64,000 nt of DNA from Pusillimonas noertemannii (lineage in GTDB: Bacteria; Pseudomonadota; Gammaproteobacteria; Burkholderiales; Burkholderiaceae_B): assembly GCF_003096595.1 (NCBI RefSeq), contig NZ_QEKO01000004.1:310001-374000 (forward strand). The letters are read 5' to 3'. The stretch's first letter is position 1, and each line of letters begins with the position of its first letter. The position numbers were made by a program, and so were the translations under genes. A model generated the notes under the pieces. That model saw nothing but the letters and a program-made list of their open reading frames with translations, searched no databases and was not told the DNA's origin. Below are positions 14,056-42,114 of the stretch, piece after piece.

Positions 14056-15348
14056 TCAATCGATGCCGTGGAACACGCTGTCGTCGGGCCCGATGTGCGA
14101 GGGCGGGCTCCAGGTAACATCGCGCAGCGAGTGCTGGACCAGGCCCTCGACCCCCAGCAGCACGGCAAAAATCGCCATCCGCACCGGTATGCCGTTGTCG
14201 GCCTGGCGGAAGATGGCCAGGCGCGGGTCGTGGTTCAGGTCGACGCCCAGATCGTGCGCACCTTCGCGGCTGTCGCGCGGCAAGGGATGCATGATGATGG
14301 CGTCCGAACGGCCGCAGCGGTCGACAATGGCCTTGTTCACCTGGAAATCAGCCGTATAGCCCTCAAGCTGCTCATCGGCGAAGCGCTCTTTCTGCACCCG
14401 GGTAGCGTAGACGACGTCGGCCCCGACCAGCCCCTGCTCCAGCGAACTGGTCTGCTCGATGACATGGCCGCGCTTGCCCGCCTGTTCAAGAATGTAGTCG
14501 GGCATCTCCAGCCCCTTGGGCGCCACCAGCGTGAACTTCAGGTCGCGATACAAGGCCAGCAGCTTGATCAGCGAGTGCACTGTGCGGCCGTATTTCAAGT
14601 CGCCCACCATGGCGATGTGGGCGCCGTCCAGCAGCTTGCCCAGGCGCGAGAACTCGGTCAGTATGGTGTACAGGTCGAGCAGGGCCTGGCTGGGATGCTC
14701 GCCGGCGCCGTCGCCGCCGTTGATCACCGGTATATTCGTTGCGTCGGCGAACTCGGCCACCGAGCCGCGCTCGGGGTGGCGTATGACCAGCGCGTCGACA
14801 TAGCCGCTCATGACGCGACTGGTGTCGTAAATGGATTCGCCTTTTGCCATGGACGAAAACGTAAAGCCCGTTGTGTCGCACACCGAGCCGCCCAGCCGGC
14901 AGAAGGCGGCGCCGAAACTGACCCGGGTACGCGTGCTGGCCTCGAAGAACAGGTTTCCAAGCACCGCCCCCTCGAGCACCCGCGATACCTTCTGACGCCG
15001 CGCAATGGGCTGCATCTGGTCGGCAATGCGAAACAGCTCTTCGACCGATTCGCGAGTGAACTGGTCCACCGAAAGCAGTTGGTGCTTGCCGTTATATGAA
15101 ATACGGTCTCGCAAAGGCCCCGACTGTGCGCTTTGCGCATATTTTTCAAGCAGAGCTTCGTTTTCGACAATCTCGGTGACAAAGCGGGACACCACCTCGG
15201 GCATGTTGCGGGCTTCCTGCGAGCCTTCGGGCAACAGCCAGGTATCGAGCGCACGCCGCTTGACCCCGATACGGACCGCGAACACATCGCGGGTCAGGTT
15301 GAGCCGACGCATTGCGTCGCGCAGAAAGACTTGCTGGGAAACAGACAT
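14056..15348 (-). CDS. pyrB: Aspartate carbamoyltransferase with N-terminal HTH-like extension
   Basis: Condenses carbamoyl phosphate with aspartate in pyrimidine synthesis. At 430 residues it is about 110 longer than the usual PyrB. Catalytic motifs are present: STRTRVSF at 138-145 for carbamoyl phosphate and HPSQALLDLYTI at 218-229. Because STRTR normally falls near residue 52, about 85 residues precede the enzyme fold. Residues 7-40 (FLRDAMRRLN then RDVFAVRIGVKRRALDTWL) resemble an XRE-type helix-turn-helix. An AGGGG RBS lies 7 nt before the ATG. The promoter is covered by a long perfect palindrome, so autoregulation is conceivable. Long PyrB forms exist in betaproteobacteria; the HTH reading is mine. 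Confidence 0.92.
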   Translation of the reverse strand: MSVSQQVFLRDAMRRLNLTRDVFAVRIGVKRRALDTWLLPEGSQEARNMPEVVSRFVTEIVENEALLEKYAQSAQSGPLRDRISYNGKHQLLSVDQFTRESVEELFRIADQMQPIARRQKVSRVLEGAVLGNLFFEASTRTRVSFGAAFCRLGGSVCDTTGFTFSSMAKGESIYDTSRVMSGYVDALVIRHPERGSVAEFADATNIPVINGGDGAGEHPSQALLDLYTILTEFSRLGKLLDGAHIAMVGDLKYGRTVHSLIKLLALYRDLKFTLVAPKGLEMPDYILEQAGKRGHVIEQTSSLEQGLVGADVVYATRVQKERFADEQLEGYTADFQVNKAIVDRCGRSDAIIMHPLPRDSREGAHDLGVDLNHDPRLAIFRQADNGIPVRMAIFAVLLGVEGLVQHSLRDVTWSPPSHIGPDDSVFHGID

Positions 15349-15360
15349 GGCGCGGCCCCT

Positions 15361-15396
15361 AAATAAAATATACGCAGTGCGTATATTTTATTTCAA
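15361..15396 (-). promoter_or_regulatory. pyrB promoter inside a 33-bp perfect palindrome
   Basis: Positions 15361-15393 form 16-bp arms (AAATAAAATATACGCA and its complement) around one central base. On the minus strand TTGAAA (15391-15396) and TATATT (15367-15372) are separated by 18 bp, a plausible sigma-70 promoter that the palindrome covers almost entirely. It lies 13 nt upstream of the pyrB ATG. The length and perfection point to a repressor operator. Confidence 0.75.
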
Positions 15397-15455
15397 CCGC
15401 CCTTCAAGGTGAACCTTTTTTGCGTCTTCATGCGCATTATTACAACGCAGGCTCT

Positions 15456-16862: not shown

Positions 16863-17036
16863 GTGGCTGATACGCATTCCACCCACCCCAGTTCCTCTAA
16901 CGCTCGCCGTTTTTCGGCGGGTCTGGTCACCGGCATCGTCACGCTGGCGTGGCTGGTCGTTTTCGGCGCGGTCATGGTGCACGGCCTCGACGGCATCCAT
17001 CAGCACGACGAGGTCGTGGCCACGCAGGCCAAGTAA
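16863..17036 (+). CDS. 57-residue single-pass membrane protein, GTG start
   Basis: A small ORF with a well-placed GGAG seven nucleotides before a GTG start. The product begins with a polar stretch (VADTHSTHPSSSNARRF), has one membrane helix (AGLVTGIVTLAWLVVFGAVM), and ends in a short charged tail (GIHQHDEVVATQAK). Its last 37 nt overlap the 3' end of convergent pbpC. The good RBS and typical hydrophobic profile support it. Function is unknown. Confidence 0.6.
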   Translation: MADTHSTHPSSSNARRFSAGLVTGIVTLAWLVVFGAVMVHGLDGIHQHDEVVATQAK

Positions 17037-19213
17037 TCGTCTTGGGCCGCCTGGGCGGCCCATACCGCTCCCCTCACCGTCAGCGTCACGCTGTCCAGCA
17101 CCTCTCCTCTCTTTCCCAGCAATTCCACACGATGCCGGCCCGGCCTGGGCAGCCACAGCATTTCCTGTTCCTGCACCGTCTTTCCTCCGTCTATGCGCCA
17201 TCCCGCCAGATCGCCCGGCCGTGGCGCCGCTCCCGATGCGCGAAATACTACCCGCTGATTGCGCGGGGGAATGTCGGGGTCCAGGGCCACCACGGTTCCA
17301 TCTGCCGGCGAGATGATGCGCACGGCCTCGTAGAGCCCGTCCTGCGGGCTTTCTGCAGGCCGCACGTGCGCAAGAAGGGTGTCGCCCACAAAATAGTCCA
17401 GGCGCGCAGGTTCAATGCCGCCTTCGAAATCAACGCGGCCCGCGCGCACGCGGCCGGGCATGGACGGCTGGCTGCTGCCCGCCCTGCCGTGCAGATAAAC
17501 CATCACGTCATGCCAGATGGGGCCGGCCCCCGTCACGCCCGAGACGTCCCGCATGCTCTCGCCGCTGCTGTTGCCCGCCCATACGCCAACGGTGTAGCGA
17601 CTTGACCAGCCCATGGTCCAGTTGTCACGCATGTCTTTGCTGGTACCCGTCTTCACGGCGGTCCAGAACGGCGTCGTCAAAGGGCTGTCCAGCCCGAAAG
17701 TACGCGCGCGCGCCTGCGCATCGGACAAGATGTCGCCGACTATCCATGACGCCCCGCCGTCCATTACCTGCCGCGCCTGCGTCCCGCCGCCGACACTCAG
17801 CCGCACGGACGAATAGCGGCCCTGGTTCGCGAGCGAACGATACGCATTGGCAAGCGTAAGCAGGCTGACGTCGGCGCTGCCCAGCGCAAGGCTGTAGCCG
17901 TAATAATCGCCGTTGTGCTCGAGCGGCAGTCCCAATTGCACCAGACGCCGGCGAAAGTCGTCGGGCGTCACCATGGTCAGCGCGCGCACTGCCGGAATAT
18001 TCAAGGAAGAGGCCAAGGCGGTGCGCACGCTGACCCAGCCTGAAAAACGCTCGTCATAATTGCGGGGAATATAAAGCCCGTTTCCGGTGGGAAGGTTCAG
18101 CGGGCCGTCGTCCAGCAAGGAAACCGCCGTGAGCCGCTGCTGCTCGATCGCCTGCTGGTACAAGAATGGCTTGAGCGTGGAACCCGCCTGGCGGCGTGCC
18201 TTCGCATGATCGACCCAGGCGGCCTCCGACCACTGCCCCGACGACCCCACATAGGCCAGCACTTCGCCGCTGGCGTTGTCCAGCACCACCACCGCCGCAT
18301 CCCTGACGTGGCTTGCCGTCAGTTCATGCAGGCGGCGATTCATGATGCGCAGCACCTCGCGCTGCAGCGCTCCGTCGATCGAGGTGCGCAGCGCCTCGCC
18401 CGGCTCGGACGAGGCCTGCTCCACGGCCCAGCGGGCGAAGTGCGGAGCCAGTTCGTTGCGATCGAACCGGGGCGACGACCGATTTCGAAGCCGAGCCTCG
18501 ACGAACAGCTTCATGTCGAAGCAATCGGCGTCCTGGCGGGTTCTGCCTAGCAGCCCGCAGGCGCGCCGGGCAAGCAGGTCGGCGGAAACGTTGGGGCCGC
18601 GCAGCATGACCGCCGCGATGGCGGATTCACGGGCATCCAGGCCGCTGGCATGTTTTTGAAACAGCACCCTGGACAAGGCGTCGACACCCACCAGCTCGCC
18701 CCTGAACGGAACCAAGTTGAGATAGGCCTCGAGTATCTGTTCTTTGCTCCAGCGGCGCTCGAGCGCCTGGGCATAAATCGCCTGGTCCAGTTTTTGCAGC
18801 GGGCCGCGGCCATGGGCGGGCCTGCGATGGCTGTTCTCGATGAGGCCTGCCAACTGCATGGTCAACGTGGACGCGCCGCGTTGCCCGGAACCCATGAGCG
18901 TTGCCCACGCCGCGGCGGCCACCGCCCGAGCGTCCACGCCATGATGCGTGTAGAAGCGCCGGTCTTCCGACTGGATGACAGCCTTCAGCAAGGCGGGAGA
19001 CACCTCGTCCAGGCTCAGCCAGTCGCCGCGCCGCCCCTGGAAATCGCTGCGCACCCGCTGCAGCGGCATGCCATTTCGATCGAGGACCAGCACATCGGAA
19101 GCCCGGTAGCTTTCGCGCAGCGACTCGAAGGCGGGTATGGGCGCGGACATTGACGCGGCGGCAGGCGCCCATGCCAGCAGCGCCACCGCCATCATCCGCT
19201 TCAGCGCACCCAT
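17000..19213 (-). CDS. pbpC: Penicillin-binding protein 1C
   Basis: Bifunctional class A PBP of the PBP1C type: glycosyltransferase GT51 plus transpeptidase. The 737-residue protein begins with an N-terminal signal/anchor, then GT51 with the catalytic glutamate in EDRRFYTHHGVD and the GASTLTMQLA motif. The transpeptidase has the active serine in GSTLKPF, the SLN triad in ASSLNIPAV, and KTGTS. The PBP1C C-terminal beta-domain follows. It starts 13 nt after the alpha-2-macroglobulin gene, the pairing known for pbpC/yfhM in E. coli, where the macroglobulin is thought to guard the wall-repair PBP. Confidence 0.95.
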   Translation of the reverse strand: MGALKRMMAVALLAWAPAAASMSAPIPAFESLRESYRASDVLVLDRNGMPLQRVRSDFQGRRGDWLSLDEVSPALLKAVIQSEDRRFYTHHGVDARAVAAAAWATLMGSGQRGASTLTMQLAGLIENSHRRPAHGRGPLQKLDQAIYAQALERRWSKEQILEAYLNLVPFRGELVGVDALSRVLFQKHASGLDARESAIAAVMLRGPNVSADLLARRACGLLGRTRQDADCFDMKLFVEARLRNRSSPRFDRNELAPHFARWAVEQASSEPGEALRTSIDGALQREVLRIMNRRLHELTASHVRDAAVVVLDNASGEVLAYVGSSGQWSEAAWVDHAKARRQAGSTLKPFLYQQAIEQQRLTAVSLLDDGPLNLPTGNGLYIPRNYDERFSGWVSVRTALASSLNIPAVRALTMVTPDDFRRRLVQLGLPLEHNGDYYGYSLALGSADVSLLTLANAYRSLANQGRYSSVRLSVGGGTQARQVMDGGASWIVGDILSDAQARARTFGLDSPLTTPFWTAVKTGTSKDMRDNWTMGWSSRYTVGVWAGNSSGESMRDVSGVTGAGPIWHDVMVYLHGRAGSSQPSMPGRVRAGRVDFEGGIEPARLDYFVGDTLLAHVRPAESPQDGLYEAVRIISPADGTVVALDPDIPPRNQRVVFRASGAAPRPGDLAGWRIDGGKTVQEQEMLWLPRPGRHRVELLGKRGEVLDSVTLTVRGAVWAAQAAQDDYLACVATTSSC

Positions 19214-19226
19214 GCTCCCGCCTGCC

Positions 19227-22200
19227 CTAATCGACGCTCACATCCATGTCGCCCTGATGAGGCAATATTCCCTGGACGTCGGGTTGATAAAGGGCTTCGA
19301 TGCGGGTGGGCGGCATGCTGAACCGCCCCGCCGTATTGAGGCGAACCGTGTAGTCGATTTCAGTCACGCCTTGAGGCAAGTGCTCGTAATAGGCGCGATA
19401 GCCGCTGAAGCTTCTTTCGACAAAACTGGGCGCTGGGCCCCGGTTGGCCTCCTCGGTGCGCGTCGCAATGGCCGAGTCGCGCCCCAAGCCGCTGCCAAGA
19501 ATGGTCGCACCGGCGGGAATCGGGTCGCTTATCACTGCCCACGAACTTGCGCTGCGCGCGGTGATGGTCAGCCGAACCCGATAGATGTCGCCAGGCGACC
19601 AGCGGTCGGGGTGCGCCCGCGAAACAGGTGTAAGGCTGCGCTGCAGCTCGAAGCCCGCCACCACGGGCTTGCGCACCGGCACCGCTGCCAGCGAACGCGT
19701 CCACACCCAGATCTTGCCGAACCCTTCCTGCCTTACGTCCAGTACACCCGATCCGCTTGCCGGCCAAGGTTGCAGAAGGTGGTGCACGATCGCGTCGGAC
19801 GGCGACCGGAAGTCGCCGCCGCCCTGCCCGGACGGCTGCGCGGCCTGTGAAGCCGCCGCATTCGGCTGGTCCCAATTGAAACTGCGGGATTCCGTGTCCG
19901 AGATGCCGACATGCACCTGGCCGGACACGGGCACCTGCTCGTAGGTCCGGGCGAATTTCTCCATGGCCAGGCTGGCCATCAGGTTCTCGGTGGTGGTGCG
20001 CCAGGCTCCGTTGTTTTGGGCGGCGATCAGGCCCTGGGCAAGGCGGGGCACGGCCTCCTCCCAATCAGGCCGGTCGGCCACCAGCGACAGCAGGCGCGCC
20101 GCATCCACCTGGGGGCTGCGCATCATCCACCATTGCTCGTCCCTTTCGTTTTCGACGAAGACGAGTTCGGTGCCGCGATTCAGCATGCGGGCCCTGATTA
20201 TCTGCTCGGCCTGCTGCATGTGTTCGGCGCGCCGGGGAATGTCTTGCACCCTGGTCAGGATGGACAGCCAATCGATGACCGAAGAGGTGGGCCAGCGGTC
20301 GGGAACGATCTGGATGCTGTCGAGCAGCGCAGGGCGCATCACGCCTTCGCGAGCCAGCGCCTCGAGGACCAGAAGCTTGCGCAGCTGCAGGTCGTTCATG
20401 GGCGCCCAGCGATGCCGCGCGATGCGGCCCTGCACGAACTCGAGCAGGCCTTGCCGCATGGATTCGCGCGCCCTCTCGGGCAAGGGAAAGTCCAGGCCCA
20501 GCGAACGGGCTTCGTGGCTGGCGGACAGCAGATAGGCGGTAAGCACTTCGCTGCCTTGCGAGCCGCCCGGGAAATAGGCCGCCAGGCCGTCCTCGTCGAG
20601 ATAGTCGGGCAGCTTGCGCATGAGGTCGCGCCACTGGTCGACGCTGCGCATGCCCATCGCGCGGGAACCCAGTTGCTCGAGGCAGGTGTACTGGTAGTCG
20701 GCGAACCATCGGGTCACGCCCGGCAGGCTGCCGCCCAGGGTCGATTGCAGATAAACCTCGAGCCCGCCTCGCGGCGCCCCGTTGCCCAGCCGCAGCGCCC
20801 CGTCGGGCGCCGCAAATGACAGATGCATGGGAGCCGATTCGTCCACAGCCTGCAGCGAGGCCTGATGCACGGTAATGGGCACGCTGGCTGCCAGCGCCTG
20901 ATGCACGACCAGCCTGTCGCCCGCGCCCTCGCCTTCGAGCTCGGCGGCCTCGAGCGTCCATGTCAGTTGGGCATCGGCGTCGGGCTGCTCGGCCTGGGGC
21001 GCGGTAAGCTCCCAGAACAAGGTGTCCGCCTGGCCGGCCCCCAGCTTCAGGGAGCGCGGCTCCAGGGCGCCATCCGGCACGCCCTCGCCCGTGTAGCGCG
21101 CCTGCACTTGCAGGCTCATGTCGCGCTCTGTGGTATTGCGCACGGTGATCGAGGCCCGGTAGTGGTCACCTTCGCGCACCAGCGCGGGCAGGCCCGAGAT
21201 CACCTGCACATCCTGGGTTGTGGCGATGGTGGCCTGCCCCTCGCCGAAGCGCGCAACGCCTTCATCGGCAATGGCCACCAGCCGGAACGAGCTGATGGAA
21301 TCGTTCAGGGGCACGATCACGCTGGCCCTGCCCTGAGCGTCCAGCTGCACGTCGGGCTGCCAAAGCAGCAAGGTATCCAGCAATTCCCGTGTCGGGCTTT
21401 TGCCGCCGCCGCCACCCGCGGGCAGGGCCTTGCGTCCGTAATGACGGCGCCCCACCACCTGGGTCTGGCCGGTGGCCGTCTGAACGCCATAACTGCGGCG
21501 CGGGTGCATGGCCTCGAGCAGCCGCCAGCTGTCGTTGCCGGCCAGTTCGAGCAAGGCCTCGTCCACCGCGGCAAAGGCCACCTGCCCATGGGCGGCGGGC
21601 TTGCCGTCGGCGGTGCTTACCTGGATCTGCACCTTCGCCTCGTCCCGCACCTGATAGCGCGGCTTGTCGGGCGTTACCTCGACCTTCAGGCCACCGCTTC
21701 CATCGTTGACGCGGATCTCGGCCAGGCCGAACCGGAAAGCCGGCTTGGAAAGATCGATAAGCGCAGTGGGCGCCTGATATTCCCGGCCGCTCCGGAAGGC
21801 ATCGAACCAGGACGCGGGCTGTTTCCAGCCCCAGGAAAAGAAGGAGTACCAGGGCACCTCATGCAGGCGGCCGCGCAGCACCAGCACCGACACATAGACA
21901 TTGGGCCCCCATTCGGCCAGCACCGGAATGCGAACGCGCGGATCATCGCCCTCGAGTTCGACCACGCTGGACGACAGGACACCCTCGCGCTCGACGGCCA
22001 CCAGGGCGGTTGCATGGCGGAAAGGCATGCGCACCTGGAACTCGGCGGTTTCGCCCGGCTGGTAGACCTTCTTGCCCGGAATGATGTCGATGCGGTCGTC
22101 GTTGCCCGCATCGAACCACAGGTCGTCGCCCCCCATGACCCAGATGGTGGTGGCCGCCTCGCTGCGCCGGCCTTCGCTGTCGGCGGCGCTGGCGATCAGT

Positions 22201-25166
22201 TCGATCGAACCGGATTGCTCAAAGCTTGCCTCGCATCGCAGTCCACCCCGCTCGTCGGTCTTGCCTTCGCAGACCTGGCCCAGGTCGGTCAGGCGCGTGT
22301 GATGCTCGTAGCTGTAGAACCCGCCCACCATGCGCTGGCGGGTCGAATAAACCGTGCGCGACACGGCACGTATGCTGACAGGAACGCCCGCTTGCGGCTG
22401 CCCTTCCGGAGACAGGGCGAGCGCATCGATCGACATCGGCTTGCCTTGCTGTCCCCAGCTTCCGCCGCGTATGCCCGCCACGACGCCCGCGGGCCAGGCC
22501 CTGGCGACCTGGCTGAGGGTTTGCACCTGCCCGTTCGGGTCGGAAAAACTGGCCTCGAAGCGCAATTCGCTGGGCCGCGAAATCGCGGGAATGGCATCGA
22601 GCGCAAGGCGCGCTGCGCCCTGCTCGTCGAGCGTGACCTCCTTCTTGTCCAGGAAAAGACGCTGGTCGACAGCCTCGCTATCTTCGGATGACTCGTCCTG
22701 CGTACCGGAAGGAGGAGCAAAAGAGTAGTCGTCGTAATCGTCATAGCTCAATTGCCTGTCGCGCAGCACGGCCGAGAGCTTGACAGGCAGCCTGGCCGCG
22801 GGCCCTCCGGACACGAAAGAAATCTGCAGGTCGGCGTTCAGCTTGGCCGGCGCCACGAGCACGGGCCCCGCTTCGGGCTGGCTGATCTTGAGGCTGCCCG
22901 CCAATATCGGCAGCTTGAATTCCTCGACCCGGAAACTGCCATCGGGCATGGCGTAGTCGTCGTCCCTTTGCAGAGCCACGCTGTAGTCGCCGAGCTTGGC
23001 CGAACGGGTCAGCTGGAATTCGCTGTGGGCACTCAGCCCCCCCGAAGGGGTTGTTTCCCACTTCAGTTCCTGCTCGTGGCTCTGGCCCGAACCCTGATGG
23101 ATGATGACCAGCTTGTTGGGCAGTTGATCGGGCTCGGGCAGGGCCAGGCCGTCGCGCGTCTGCACCCGCGCAAAATGCTTCATGGACACGGTTTCACCGG
23201 CGCGGAACAGGCTGCGATCGAACACGGTATGGGTGACCACGGTGGGTTCGGGCCGCATGTCGGTCGGCACATTGAAGCGCCAGGACTCCATGCCCCCGTT
23301 CCATTCCGACAGGACAAAGGCGAAATCGTCCTTGCCGCGCGCAAGGGGGTGGTTCTTGGGGATACGGGCCGAAACGTACAAGCCGCTCATGCCGGTATCG
23401 CTGCAATAATCCGGGCCGTCGAGCGCGCCATCGTGGTGCCACAGGCCGTGCGCATCGGTACTTCCTTCGGCCAGGAGCCGGCCCGAACAATCCAGCACGC
23501 GAAGCTGCGCTTCTGGAACGACCTGGCCACCGTCCAGGCTGGTTACCCACACCATGACGTCGTCACGGCCCTGCTTCAGATGCACCCCCAGATTGGTGAC
23601 CAACACGCCGCTGCGCACAAACATGGGCCGCTCTTCACCCAGCAAGGCCGTGCCCAGGCGGGCCGATTCGACCTCGAGCACATGAAAGCCGGGCTGGGCC
23701 ACCGGCACCCCGATGACCTCGAGGGGACGCTCATTGCCCTGCCCGCCCCCGGGCAAGGTGAGTGTGCGTACGCCCTCTCGATCATGAAGCACCGAATAGC
23801 CCCGCACGTCGATGGCATCGTCGCCGCCCTCGCCTGGCTCGTCTCCGTCCAGAATGCGGCCGATCTGCTGCCGGGTCCACCTGCCGCCGTCCAGCCTCTG
23901 CAGGCTGGCGTACCAGCGCAGCACCTCTTCGTCATCGGCGGGGACGTAGTCGCGTACCGTTCCCAAAGGCCTGGACAAATCCCTGGCAAGCAGTTCCTGC
24001 TCGACATTGCGCACGGTAAGCGGCACTGTGGGCGGGAAATCGGCTTCGTCCACGCCCGGCGGCGCATTGGCAAAGCGTTCTATGGTTCCGAAAGTGCCCG
24101 ACGAAAACTTGACCAGCGAAGGATAGCCGCCGGTCTGCACAATAAGAGGAAATTGATCGGTATTGCTGACTTGCCGGCCCGCATCGTCCTTGAAGCCGTC
24201 AGGCAGCACGACCTGCAGTTCGGCTTGTGGCTCAAAAGGCCCCGAGAACACCAGGCGCTGCGTGCTGGACTGCTCATCGCCTTCTCCGGGGAGATCAGGC
24301 TCGATCTGGCCGCCCGCGCTAAGCAGCCGAACGCCTCCCGCCAATTCTGCCGGGACCGGAGCGTTGAACAGCACGACGATGGGCAGCACCGGTGTGCAAG
24401 GCGCGTTGGCGTTTTCGCGCTGGCAGCTCGTCGAAACCTTGAATGGCGCACGCACCTTGAAATCAAACACCTGCGGCTTCGCGGAAGCCACGCCGCTGGG
24501 GCTTGCAACCCCTTTTCCCAGGACCAGCCGAAGGCCTGTATCGGCGGGCAACAGGCGCTTGCACTGCAGCAGCTGAATGGCCGGGTCGTCCGCCGAGTCG
24601 CCCATATAGGCCGCCTCGAGCAAGGCCTTGCGCTGGGCTGCGTCGTCGACCAGGCGCACCGGAACCGCCTCGCCCAGGCCCTGGACCGCGCAATGCGTGT
24701 GGGCCAGCAACGTCTGCGGATCTACCGCGCCGTTGAATTGCAGCAGGAAGATCTGGTCTTCATCGATGGTGTCGCCCCAGGGACGCCTGGAAACCACATG
24801 CGGGCCGCCCGTTGCAAAAGAGTATGAGGTAGTGCCCGTAATGGCTTGGCCGCCAAGCGTGCGAAAGCCGGAATCGACGCTTGCCGAGCACTTGACGCCC
24901 GGCCCCGGCGCCGACCTGAATACATAGGTCCAGTTCCTGGCGTCTGTCCAGCGGCCGTCACCCACCACGGAGTCATCATCGCAGCTGACTCGCAGCGGCG
25001 CGGGCGCAGCCGCGTCTCCAAAGGCGATGACGGCCTGGTCGAAGGTGACCTTGACGCTTTCTATCGTTGCAACCGTGCCCTGAGGAGAGAAATGCGTGAT
25101 GTGCGCCGCATGAACCGACGCCGCCATCGACAACAGCCACAACGCTAACAAGCCACGTCCCTTCAT
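19227..25166 (-). CDS. Bacterial alpha-2-macroglobulin (thioester protease trap)
   Basis: A 1979-residue secreted protein, longer than E. coli YfhM (about 1650). The start is at MKGRGLLALWLLSM after an AGGAAG RBS; an upstream ATG adds 10 residues. The signal peptide ends around ASVHA with no lipobox cysteine, so it should be periplasmic rather than lipid-anchored. An N-terminal Ig-like domain, several macroglobulin domains, and MG/bait regions lead to the thioester motif CLEQ at residue 1495 in a YTCLEQLGSR context, followed by the alpha-barrel TED domain and a receptor-like C-terminus. It is the first gene of the pbpC operon. A conserved CLEQ indicates a working covalent trap. Confidence 0.93.
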   Translation of the reverse strand: MKGRGLLALWLLSMAASVHAAHITHFSPQGTVATIESVKVTFDQAVIAFGDAAAPAPLRVSCDDDSVVGDGRWTDARNWTYVFRSAPGPGVKCSASVDSGFRTLGGQAITGTTSYSFATGGPHVVSRRPWGDTIDEDQIFLLQFNGAVDPQTLLAHTHCAVQGLGEAVPVRLVDDAAQRKALLEAAYMGDSADDPAIQLLQCKRLLPADTGLRLVLGKGVASPSGVASAKPQVFDFKVRAPFKVSTSCQRENANAPCTPVLPIVVLFNAPVPAELAGGVRLLSAGGQIEPDLPGEGDEQSSTQRLVFSGPFEPQAELQVVLPDGFKDDAGRQVSNTDQFPLIVQTGGYPSLVKFSSGTFGTIERFANAPPGVDEADFPPTVPLTVRNVEQELLARDLSRPLGTVRDYVPADDEEVLRWYASLQRLDGGRWTRQQIGRILDGDEPGEGGDDAIDVRGYSVLHDREGVRTLTLPGGGQGNERPLEVIGVPVAQPGFHVLEVESARLGTALLGEERPMFVRSGVLVTNLGVHLKQGRDDVMVWVTSLDGGQVVPEAQLRVLDCSGRLLAEGSTDAHGLWHHDGALDGPDYCSDTGMSGLYVSARIPKNHPLARGKDDFAFVLSEWNGGMESWRFNVPTDMRPEPTVVTHTVFDRSLFRAGETVSMKHFARVQTRDGLALPEPDQLPNKLVIIHQGSGQSHEQELKWETTPSGGLSAHSEFQLTRSAKLGDYSVALQRDDDYAMPDGSFRVEEFKLPILAGSLKISQPEAGPVLVAPAKLNADLQISFVSGGPAARLPVKLSAVLRDRQLSYDDYDDYSFAPPSGTQDESSEDSEAVDQRLFLDKKEVTLDEQGAARLALDAIPAISRPSELRFEASFSDPNGQVQTLSQVARAWPAGVVAGIRGGSWGQQGKPMSIDALALSPEGQPQAGVPVSIRAVSRTVYSTRQRMVGGFYSYEHHTRLTDLGQVCEGKTDERGGLRCEASFEQSGSIELIASAADSEGRRSEAATTIWVMGGDDLWFDAGNDDRIDIIPGKKVYQPGETAEFQVRMPFRHATALVAVEREGVLSSSVVELEGDDPRVRIPVLAEWGPNVYVSVLVLRGRLHEVPWYSFFSWGWKQPASWFDAFRSGREYQAPTALIDLSKPAFRFGLAEIRVNDGSGGLKVEVTPDKPRYQVRDEAKVQIQVSTADGKPAAHGQVAFAAVDEALLELAGNDSWRLLEAMHPRRSYGVQTATGQTQVVGRRHYGRKALPAGGGGGKSPTRELLDTLLLWQPDVQLDAQGRASVIVPLNDSISSFRLVAIADEGVARFGEGQATIATTQDVQVISGLPALVREGDHYRASITVRNTTERDMSLQVQARYTGEGVPDGALEPRSLKLGAGQADTLFWELTAPQAEQPDADAQLTWTLEAAELEGEGAGDRLVVHQALAASVPITVHQASLQAVDESAPMHLSFAAPDGALRLGNGAPRGGLEVYLQSTLGGSLPGVTRWFADYQYTCLEQLGSRAMGMRSVDQWRDLMRKLPDYLDEDGLAAYFPGGSQGSEVLTAYLLSASHEARSLGLDFPLPERARESMRQGLLEFVQGRIARHRWAPMNDLQLRKLLVLEALAREGVMRPALLDSIQIVPDRWPTSSVIDWLSILTRVQDIPRRAEHMQQAEQIIRARMLNRGTELVFVENERDEQWWMMRSPQVDAARLLSLVADRPDWEEAVPRLAQGLIAAQNNGAWRTTTENLMASLAMEKFARTYEQVPVSGQVHVGISDTESRSFNWDQPNAAASQAAQPSGQGGGDFRSPSDAIVHHLLQPWPASGSGVLDVRQEGFGKIWVWTRSLAAVPVRKPVVAGFELQRSLTPVSRAHPDRWSPGDIYRVRLTITARSASSWAVISDPIPAGATILGSGLGRDSAIATRTEEANRGPAPSFVERSFSGYRAYYEHLPQGVTEIDYTVRLNTAGRFSMPPTRIEALYQPDVQGILPHQGDMDVSVD

Positions 25167-25374
25167 GGTCTTCCTTTGGTAGTGAGCAATGGACACATCG
25201 CAGTGTACTCAAAGCCGTACCATGGAAGAAGGGTTCTGTTGCGCCGGCCCGCCCAGGGAAGCAAGCCGCCGCCAATCCTTACGCAAGGTAACATTTCATT
25301 GGCGGTGGGCGTTGTACCGTGGATCGAAGTGCAGCCGGCATTCCGCCGCAGCAGGTAATGATGAGGAAAGAGCC

Positions 25375-42085: not shown

Positions 42086-42114
42086 GCAAAACGGGCCCAG
42101 GGGGCCCGTTTTGC
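42086..42114 (-). terminator. rpoD terminator
   Basis: Perfect 13-bp arms GCAAAACGGGCCC and complement around a 3-nt loop, 33 nt past the rpoD stop. A/T runs inside the stem make it effective in both directions, but no plus-strand gene ends here. Confidence 0.85.

Follow-up and report, generated by a model that had tools for sequence, protein, structure and literature searches.

Why does a long, perfect palindrome sit directly in front of pyrB, the gene for aspartate transcarbamoylase (ATCase)? In the 64-kb stretch of a Pusillimonas-like Alcaligenaceae genome analyzed here, which we call the window, positions 15361-15393 read AAATAAAATATACGCA-G-TGCGTATATTTTATTT, that is, two perfect 16-nt arms around one central base, and the ATG of pyrB (at 15348, on the minus strand) lies 12 nt past the end of the palindrome. 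The enzyme is of a long form, with an N-terminal extension predicted to be a helix-turn-helix (HTH) domain. An earlier note on this DNA had described the 33-bp palindrome with its 16-bp arms, which the sequence confirms, and had proposed that PyrB represses its own gene. The evidence supports that proposal: the candidate operator tracks the HTH domain, it is lost with it, and the fold of the domain is predicted to be that of a DNA-binding protein. Our reading, which we regard as very probably correct, is that PyrB would be a bifunctional protein, an enzyme and an autorepressor acting at its own operators.

The palindrome and its conserved core

No other perfect inverted repeat in the window is as long as this palindrome. 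When the window was simulated 20 times with a first-order Markov model, the longest arm was 8-11 nt, compared with 16 in the real sequence, which is far more than chance would give.

We collected PyrB homologues from the genome of the window and 40 relatives (41 genomes in all), then from samples of the family, the order, and the class, and added 80 named loci from GTDB genomes. When their upstream regions are aligned, a shared site emerges, ATATACGC-N3-GCGTATAT, located 20-75 nt before the ATG. It is this 19-bp core, together with a TAWAAT flank on its upstream side, that is the conserved unit of the palindrome, and the CGC/GCG of the operator are conserved at 0.95-1.0. The length of 33 bp is not kept, with arms of at least 15 nt in only 6 of 100 non-redundant relatives, and we rejected it as a conserved feature. 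The palindrome is thus a real conserved element, but the unit under conservation is about 19-23 bp long, not 33.

The candidate operator tracks the HTH domain

We score a candidate operator by the number of matches out of 16 core positions, and we use a threshold of at least 12/16. Out of 120 distinct HTH-bearing pyrB loci, 115 pass this threshold, 2 score 11, and 3 have no site; just one of 571 background windows farther upstream reaches 12/16. The carriers belong to six family-level groups of Burkholderiales (f1, f4, f7, f21, f22, and f31), and f1 includes, by GTDB names, Pusillimonas, Bordetella, Achromobacter, and Castellaniella. The 17 pyrB loci without the extension provide the comparison. 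Ten of them fall within the same ATCase clade or in neighbouring ones, and the other seven are of a more distant type (about 34% identity); none has the operator, and the best score is 10/16. The expectation of the earlier note that the palindrome should accompany the HTH extension, and should not precede short-form pyrB, thus holds when applied to the core.

The operator and the HTH domain also disappear together. Reduced genomes of about 0.8 Mb have either a decayed putative recognition helix (for instance SLHTLNLW in place of KRRALDTW) or no extension at all, and the operator is missing from them; in genome G016 too the operator has been lost along with the HTH. Mapped on a tree of the ATCase domain, the HTH and the operator coincide in every row if loci L138 and L159, whose helices are intact (GVGRRALDSW and GVARRALDTW), are counted as HTH-bearing. 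The simplest history consists of one gain and about three joint losses.

What kind of domain is the extension? AlphaFold2 applied to residues 1-90 (pLDDT 80.5) predicts that the first 75 residues form a compact helical domain. Its best PDB matches by Foldseek are nearly all HTH regulators, namely Aca1, C proteins, 434 Cro, HigA, and P2 C; the match to Aca1 has probability 1.00 and a TM-score of up to 0.70 on the target. The extension also matches PHROG 4779, a transcriptional regulator family, with an E-value of 3.6e-5. By predicted fold, the extension is an HTH domain of the Cro/Aca1 type. A sequence search of the PDB with the extension returned designed proteins only. The AlphaFold2 model of the full-length protein was poor (pLDDT 46.9) and we did not use it, nor do we claim any model of the oligomer.

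The domain has a narrow distribution. In a sample of the phylum it occurs in 4 of 299 genomes, all of them Burkholderiales and all at loci identified as pyrB, and 336 GTDB candidates encode a relative of it. PyrB matches the long-form ATCase family NF008853 with 815 bits (cut-off 560) over residues 1-430, N-terminal extension included. In the window's genome PyrB retains the conserved ATCase sequence, and it is the sole ATCase that we found there.

A putative second operator inside the gene

The earlier note missed a second candidate operator, which lies inside the gene. At +206 to +218, the codons TAT ACG CAA AGC GTA (Y-T-Q-S-V) of the linker between the HTH and ATCase domains form a site that, in most Bordetella and Achromobacter as well as in genomes of f4, f21, and f31, matches the core in 13-16 of 16 positions.

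Could this site merely reflect conservation of the linker peptide (KYTQSVQ)? The peptide does show partial conservation, and a match of only 9-11/16 is seen in many Alcaligenaceae. The choice of codons, however, goes beyond what the peptide demands. Compared with genes in which synonymous codons are shuffled leaving the protein unchanged, the real genes are biased towards the operator at this site with a Stouffer z of 13.0 (102 genes), while the next best place in the gene has a z of 5.2 and the standard deviation along the gene is 1.9; as the genes are related, these z values give a ranking, not a probability. Moreover, operator-like DNA is found where the peptide differs (S-T-P-S-V-H in L135, A-T-Q-S-V-Y in L138), and group f22 and genome G440, which have no internal site, carry a pair of upstream operators separated by 45-46 or 30 bp. 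We consider it unlikely that the linker peptide explains the internal site. Since two operators recur with differing geometry, the arrangement suggests bridging by an oligomer. Weak 11/16 matches also appear at +72 of pyrB; we discarded them as by-products of the codons for VFAARIG.

Promoter register and the direction of control

In a logo of the 115 sites, conservation beyond the core is confined to the upstream side, with TAWAAT from -13 to -8, a weak hexamer from -36 to -31, and an A-tract from -45 to -40. A match to the TTGAAA-N18-TATATT promoter proposed in the earlier note is indeed there, and a second register, TTCACC-N17-TAAAAT, is present as well. Placing the -10 at -13 gives the best of all registers (4.41/6, with a -35 of 2.98/6), against 4.33 for the -10 and 2.56 for the -35 of the register first proposed, where the -35 background is 2.48. 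We take the TTCACC-N17-TAAAAT register, which is better supported by the relatives, as the more likely, although the margin between the two is small and both predict repression. Because the -10 at -13 scores best, we put the probable start of transcription close to the centre of the palindrome, so that the operator would cover -10/+1 and a single arm of the palindrome would be transcribed. Farther upstream, many Alcaligenaceae (L004-L016) share a recurring GTTGTATTTT element at about -95 from pyrB, which is some 60-70 bp upstream of the operator.

Would PyrB bind to the operator and activate, or would it be mainly a ligand-gated switch independent of its concentration? Sequence gives no direct report on the direction of the effect, and ATCase is a plausible nucleotide sensor. 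But the core lies over -10/+1 in the favoured register, and fills the spacer between -35 and -10 in the other, both of them positions typical of repression, and the internal site fits repression too. Activation or pure ligand gating therefore seems quite improbable to us.

Is the site specific to pyrB?

In the window's genome, no site other than the palindrome comes within two mismatches of the core, and the next best have three. An order-wide scan allowing at most one mismatch finds a site in 15 of 399 genomes, 12 of which have an HTH-bearing PyrB and the site at pyrB (the internal site in the case of G450). Of the other three, one has its site in an open reading frame (ORF) beside ATP synthase genes, one in a plasmid-like region, and one in a mobile-element-like region. 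Further near-matches fall inside ORFs, and none of the near-matches elsewhere is at a pyrimidine gene.

These data bear on another possibility, that some different transcription factor, which happens to control pyrB, uses the palindrome as its operator and the HTH of PyrB serves otherwise, for example in oligomerization. As a palindrome, the motif is of a generic repressor type; sites like it occur next to an IclR-family gene (G005, G007) and in a mobile-element region (G644), so that other regulators can use such sequences. But the site is essentially confined to HTH-bearing pyrB and unique in the window's genome, it recurs inside the same gene, and it disappears with loss or decay of the HTH. 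A different regulator is not expected to follow one domain so closely, and we give this explanation a slim chance.

The similar palindrome at G005:C22:128934 (L199:2035-2053) and G007:C1:892433 (L200:2034-2052), with GATTTACGCAAA adjacent, lies between the IclR-family gene and a gene for a tripartite tricarboxylate transporter binding protein, beside a cytochrome P450-like ORF, and is probably the operator of the neighbouring IclR-family regulator. In G644, two near-perfect copies of the motif (L214:1959-1977 and 2434-2452) are 475 bp apart in a mobile-element-like region with an XRE-like ORF; each copy is in the spacer of a TTGAC(A/T)-N17-TATATT promoter, and they have similar downstream leaders (CCTCGGGTTA-CAGGGGTAAGGA-TCAAG). 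This region is perhaps a relative of the source of the PyrB HTH.

Finally, it is extremely improbable that the inverted repeat acts as RNA, folding into a terminator or attenuator hairpin, or is a site of recombination or methylation: a perfect repeat could form a hairpin or a cruciform, but an Rfam search gives no attenuator family and nothing credible, there is no terminator-like match on the minus strand at the palindrome, a start near the centre would transcribe one arm only, and it is the sequence (the CGC/GCG) that is conserved, not pairing at any length.

PyrB and the other controls of pyrimidine synthesis

The earlier note had anticipated a mode of control other than PyrR or attenuation, and this agrees with what we observe. 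PyrR does not reach its cut-off in any of the 13 f1 genomes tested whose PyrB is long-form (in one of these the HTH has decayed), and it has no match in the window's genome. We find pyrR adjoining pyrB in 7 genomes with the other type of PyrB. HTH-bearing PyrB looks like a replacement for the PyrR-linked one. The exception to the absence of PyrR is genome G030, which holds two pyrB systems, one with PyrR ahead of a short pyrB, the other a distinct HTH-bearing pyrB with its operator (G030:C1:940652-942116 and 5138893-5140182); G030 is a natural case in which to compare the two controls of pyrB. PyrI is absent from all 25 genomes searched, with the control genomes positive, and for the TIGR00857-type (pseudo)dihydroorotase PyrC' the best match in the window's genome has 29.8 bits against a cut-off of 279.

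A model of autorepression, and what weighs against it

In the mechanism that we propose, the palindrome would be the operator of the product of pyrB itself. HTH dimers would form between subunits of oligomeric PyrB, and bind ATATACGC-N3-GCGTATAT over the -10/+1 of pyrB, blocking transcription. The second operator is about 240 bp downstream, in the linker codons (or, for some groups, it is an upstream copy 30-46 bp away), and one oligomer could occupy the two sites, resulting in cooperative or looping repression. The level of enzyme would then feed back on its own synthesis. PyrB probably bridges the two operators, and since ATCases are built from trimers (PMC4581275), two PyrB trimers joined by HTH dimers may be a natural arrangement for doing so. 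We infer DNA binding, repression, and looping from sequence, and a ligand, with carbamoyl phosphate, aspartate, and UTP/CTP/ATP as candidates, may modulate the repression.

Several observations weigh against this model. The Foldseek E-values of the extension are only about 0.1, as expected for a short domain, and although 10 of 21 members match Pfam HTH_3, the best E-value (0.083) is too weak to count as a Pfam hit; the HTH assignment therefore rests on the fold and on PHROG 4779. A sign test, or independent pairs, on the ATCase-domain tree is not significant, as there are too few independent events. In G163, the HTH is near-intact and the operator absent, with pyrB abutting the upstream gene. 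Part of the Alcaligenaceae (12/16 in the window), G440, f22, and most of g59 have a weak internal site or none. And repression rather than activation is deduced from the position of the site only.

As for G163, its congener G162 also has no operator, and its helix is altered (KRRELDAW). In the corresponding loci (L205 and L134, drafts of genus g50) the gap between the gene for a SecD-like lipoprotein and pyrB is reduced and no longer contains the operator.

Relation to known systems

The closest likeness in way of working is to trifunctional PutA (proline utilization A), an enzyme repressing its own gene. As in PyrB, only some lineages of PutA have the DNA-binding domain, and what we find at pyrB is likewise an enzyme with a DNA-binding domain, and a palindrome at its own promoter that comes and goes with the domain. 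This is an analogy, and we claim no membership in the PutA family: PutA is a catabolic flavoenzyme with a ribbon-helix-helix domain that controls putA and putP, whereas PyrB is a biosynthetic ATCase with a Cro/XRE-type HTH. Also unlike PutA, PyrB has its only well-matched site in the window's genome at its own gene, with one putative operator within its own coding sequence. A second candidate operator at a distance and under selection, as in gal/lac-like looping, is what we observe at +206 to +218 (z 13.0).

BzdR, whose DNA-binding domain is of the XRE type, is another case of a DNA-binding domain linked to an enzyme fold, a shikimate-kinase-like one. BzdR has lost enzymatic activity and is a dedicated regulator, while PyrB keeps a conserved ATCase sequence. 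The order of parts in BzdR is an N-terminal DNA-binding domain, a linker, and the shikimate-kinase-like domain (PMC3602430).

The nearest solved folds are those of phage and anti-CRISPR autorepressors of the Cro, Aca1, and C-protein type, small HTH dimers on palindromic operators; those proteins stand alone and are small, and the HTH of PyrB is fused to an enzyme. PyrR-regulated pyr genes, and the PyrB-PyrI and PyrB-PyrC' ATCases, control the first committed step of pyrimidine synthesis, as here, but the window's genome has no PyrR, no PyrI, no PyrC' at the level of TIGR00857, and no known attenuator family. Within the open-access literature that our search covered, we found no report of an ATCase as a transcription factor, of an HTH on an ATCase, or of such an operator.

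Features of the locus

The features discussed here are collected in Table 1. The pyrB gene stands alone: its downstream neighbour rdgC is on the opposite strand and convergent, and upstream, on the same strand, are two genes, for a predicted membrane protein and a SecD-like lipoprotein. Elsewhere in the window, a GC-rich, terminator-like inverted repeat with perfect 13-nt arms (AAAACGGGCCC...GGGCCCGTTTT) is found at 42086-42114, and in the region 17000-25196 a 1989-aa ORF, which we take to resemble bacterial alpha-2-macroglobulin, precedes a gene for penicillin-binding protein 1C (PBP_1c) on the same strand.

Table 1. Coordinates (window positions) of the elements of the pyrB locus.
Feature	Position	Strand	Remarks
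pyrB, 430-aa long-form ATCase	14056..15348	-	NF008853 / PRK11891; family profile match
N-terminal extension, residues 1-86	15091..15348	-	Predicted Cro/XRE-type HTH and linker; helices 5-16, 20-27, 31-37, 51-62, 64-73
Putative recognition helix KRRALDTW, residues 30-37	15238..15261	-	Basic residues gone in reduced genomes without operator
Putative primary operator O1, 33-bp perfect palindrome	15361..15393	.	19-bp core ATATACGCAGTGCGTATAT at 15368-15386, centre 15377; conserved upstream of HTH-bearing pyrB
Putative secondary operator O2, inside pyrB	15124..15142	.	Centre +215 from ATG; HTH-ATCase linker codons (KYAQSAQ); 12/16
Favoured -10 element TAAAAT	15385..15390	-	Left flank of the operator, read towards pyrB
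Favoured -35 element TTCACC	15408..15413	-	Putative; 17-bp spacer; transcription start near palindrome centre 15377
Likely Shine-Dalgarno AGGGG	15356..15360	-	Proposed from sequence; 7 nt before ATG

Significance

ATCase is among the most studied regulatory enzymes. In the most far-reaching form of our reading, the ATCase of Burkholderiales would have become its own transcription factor by means of a phage-type HTH, and its oligomer would bridge the operators at the promoter and in the linker codons, coupling pyrimidine flux or nucleotide state to pyrB, and standing in for PyrR. We see the case for this whole picture and the case against it as evenly balanced. With two defined sites and a separable domain, the proposal is directly testable. 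An operator encoded in the linker would be an unusual overlap of protein code and regulatory code in the binder's own gene. And if the proposal is true, several hundred species of Burkholderiales, including Bordetella and Achromobacter, would use autorepression by the enzyme at the first committed step of pyrimidine synthesis, and not PyrR or attenuation.
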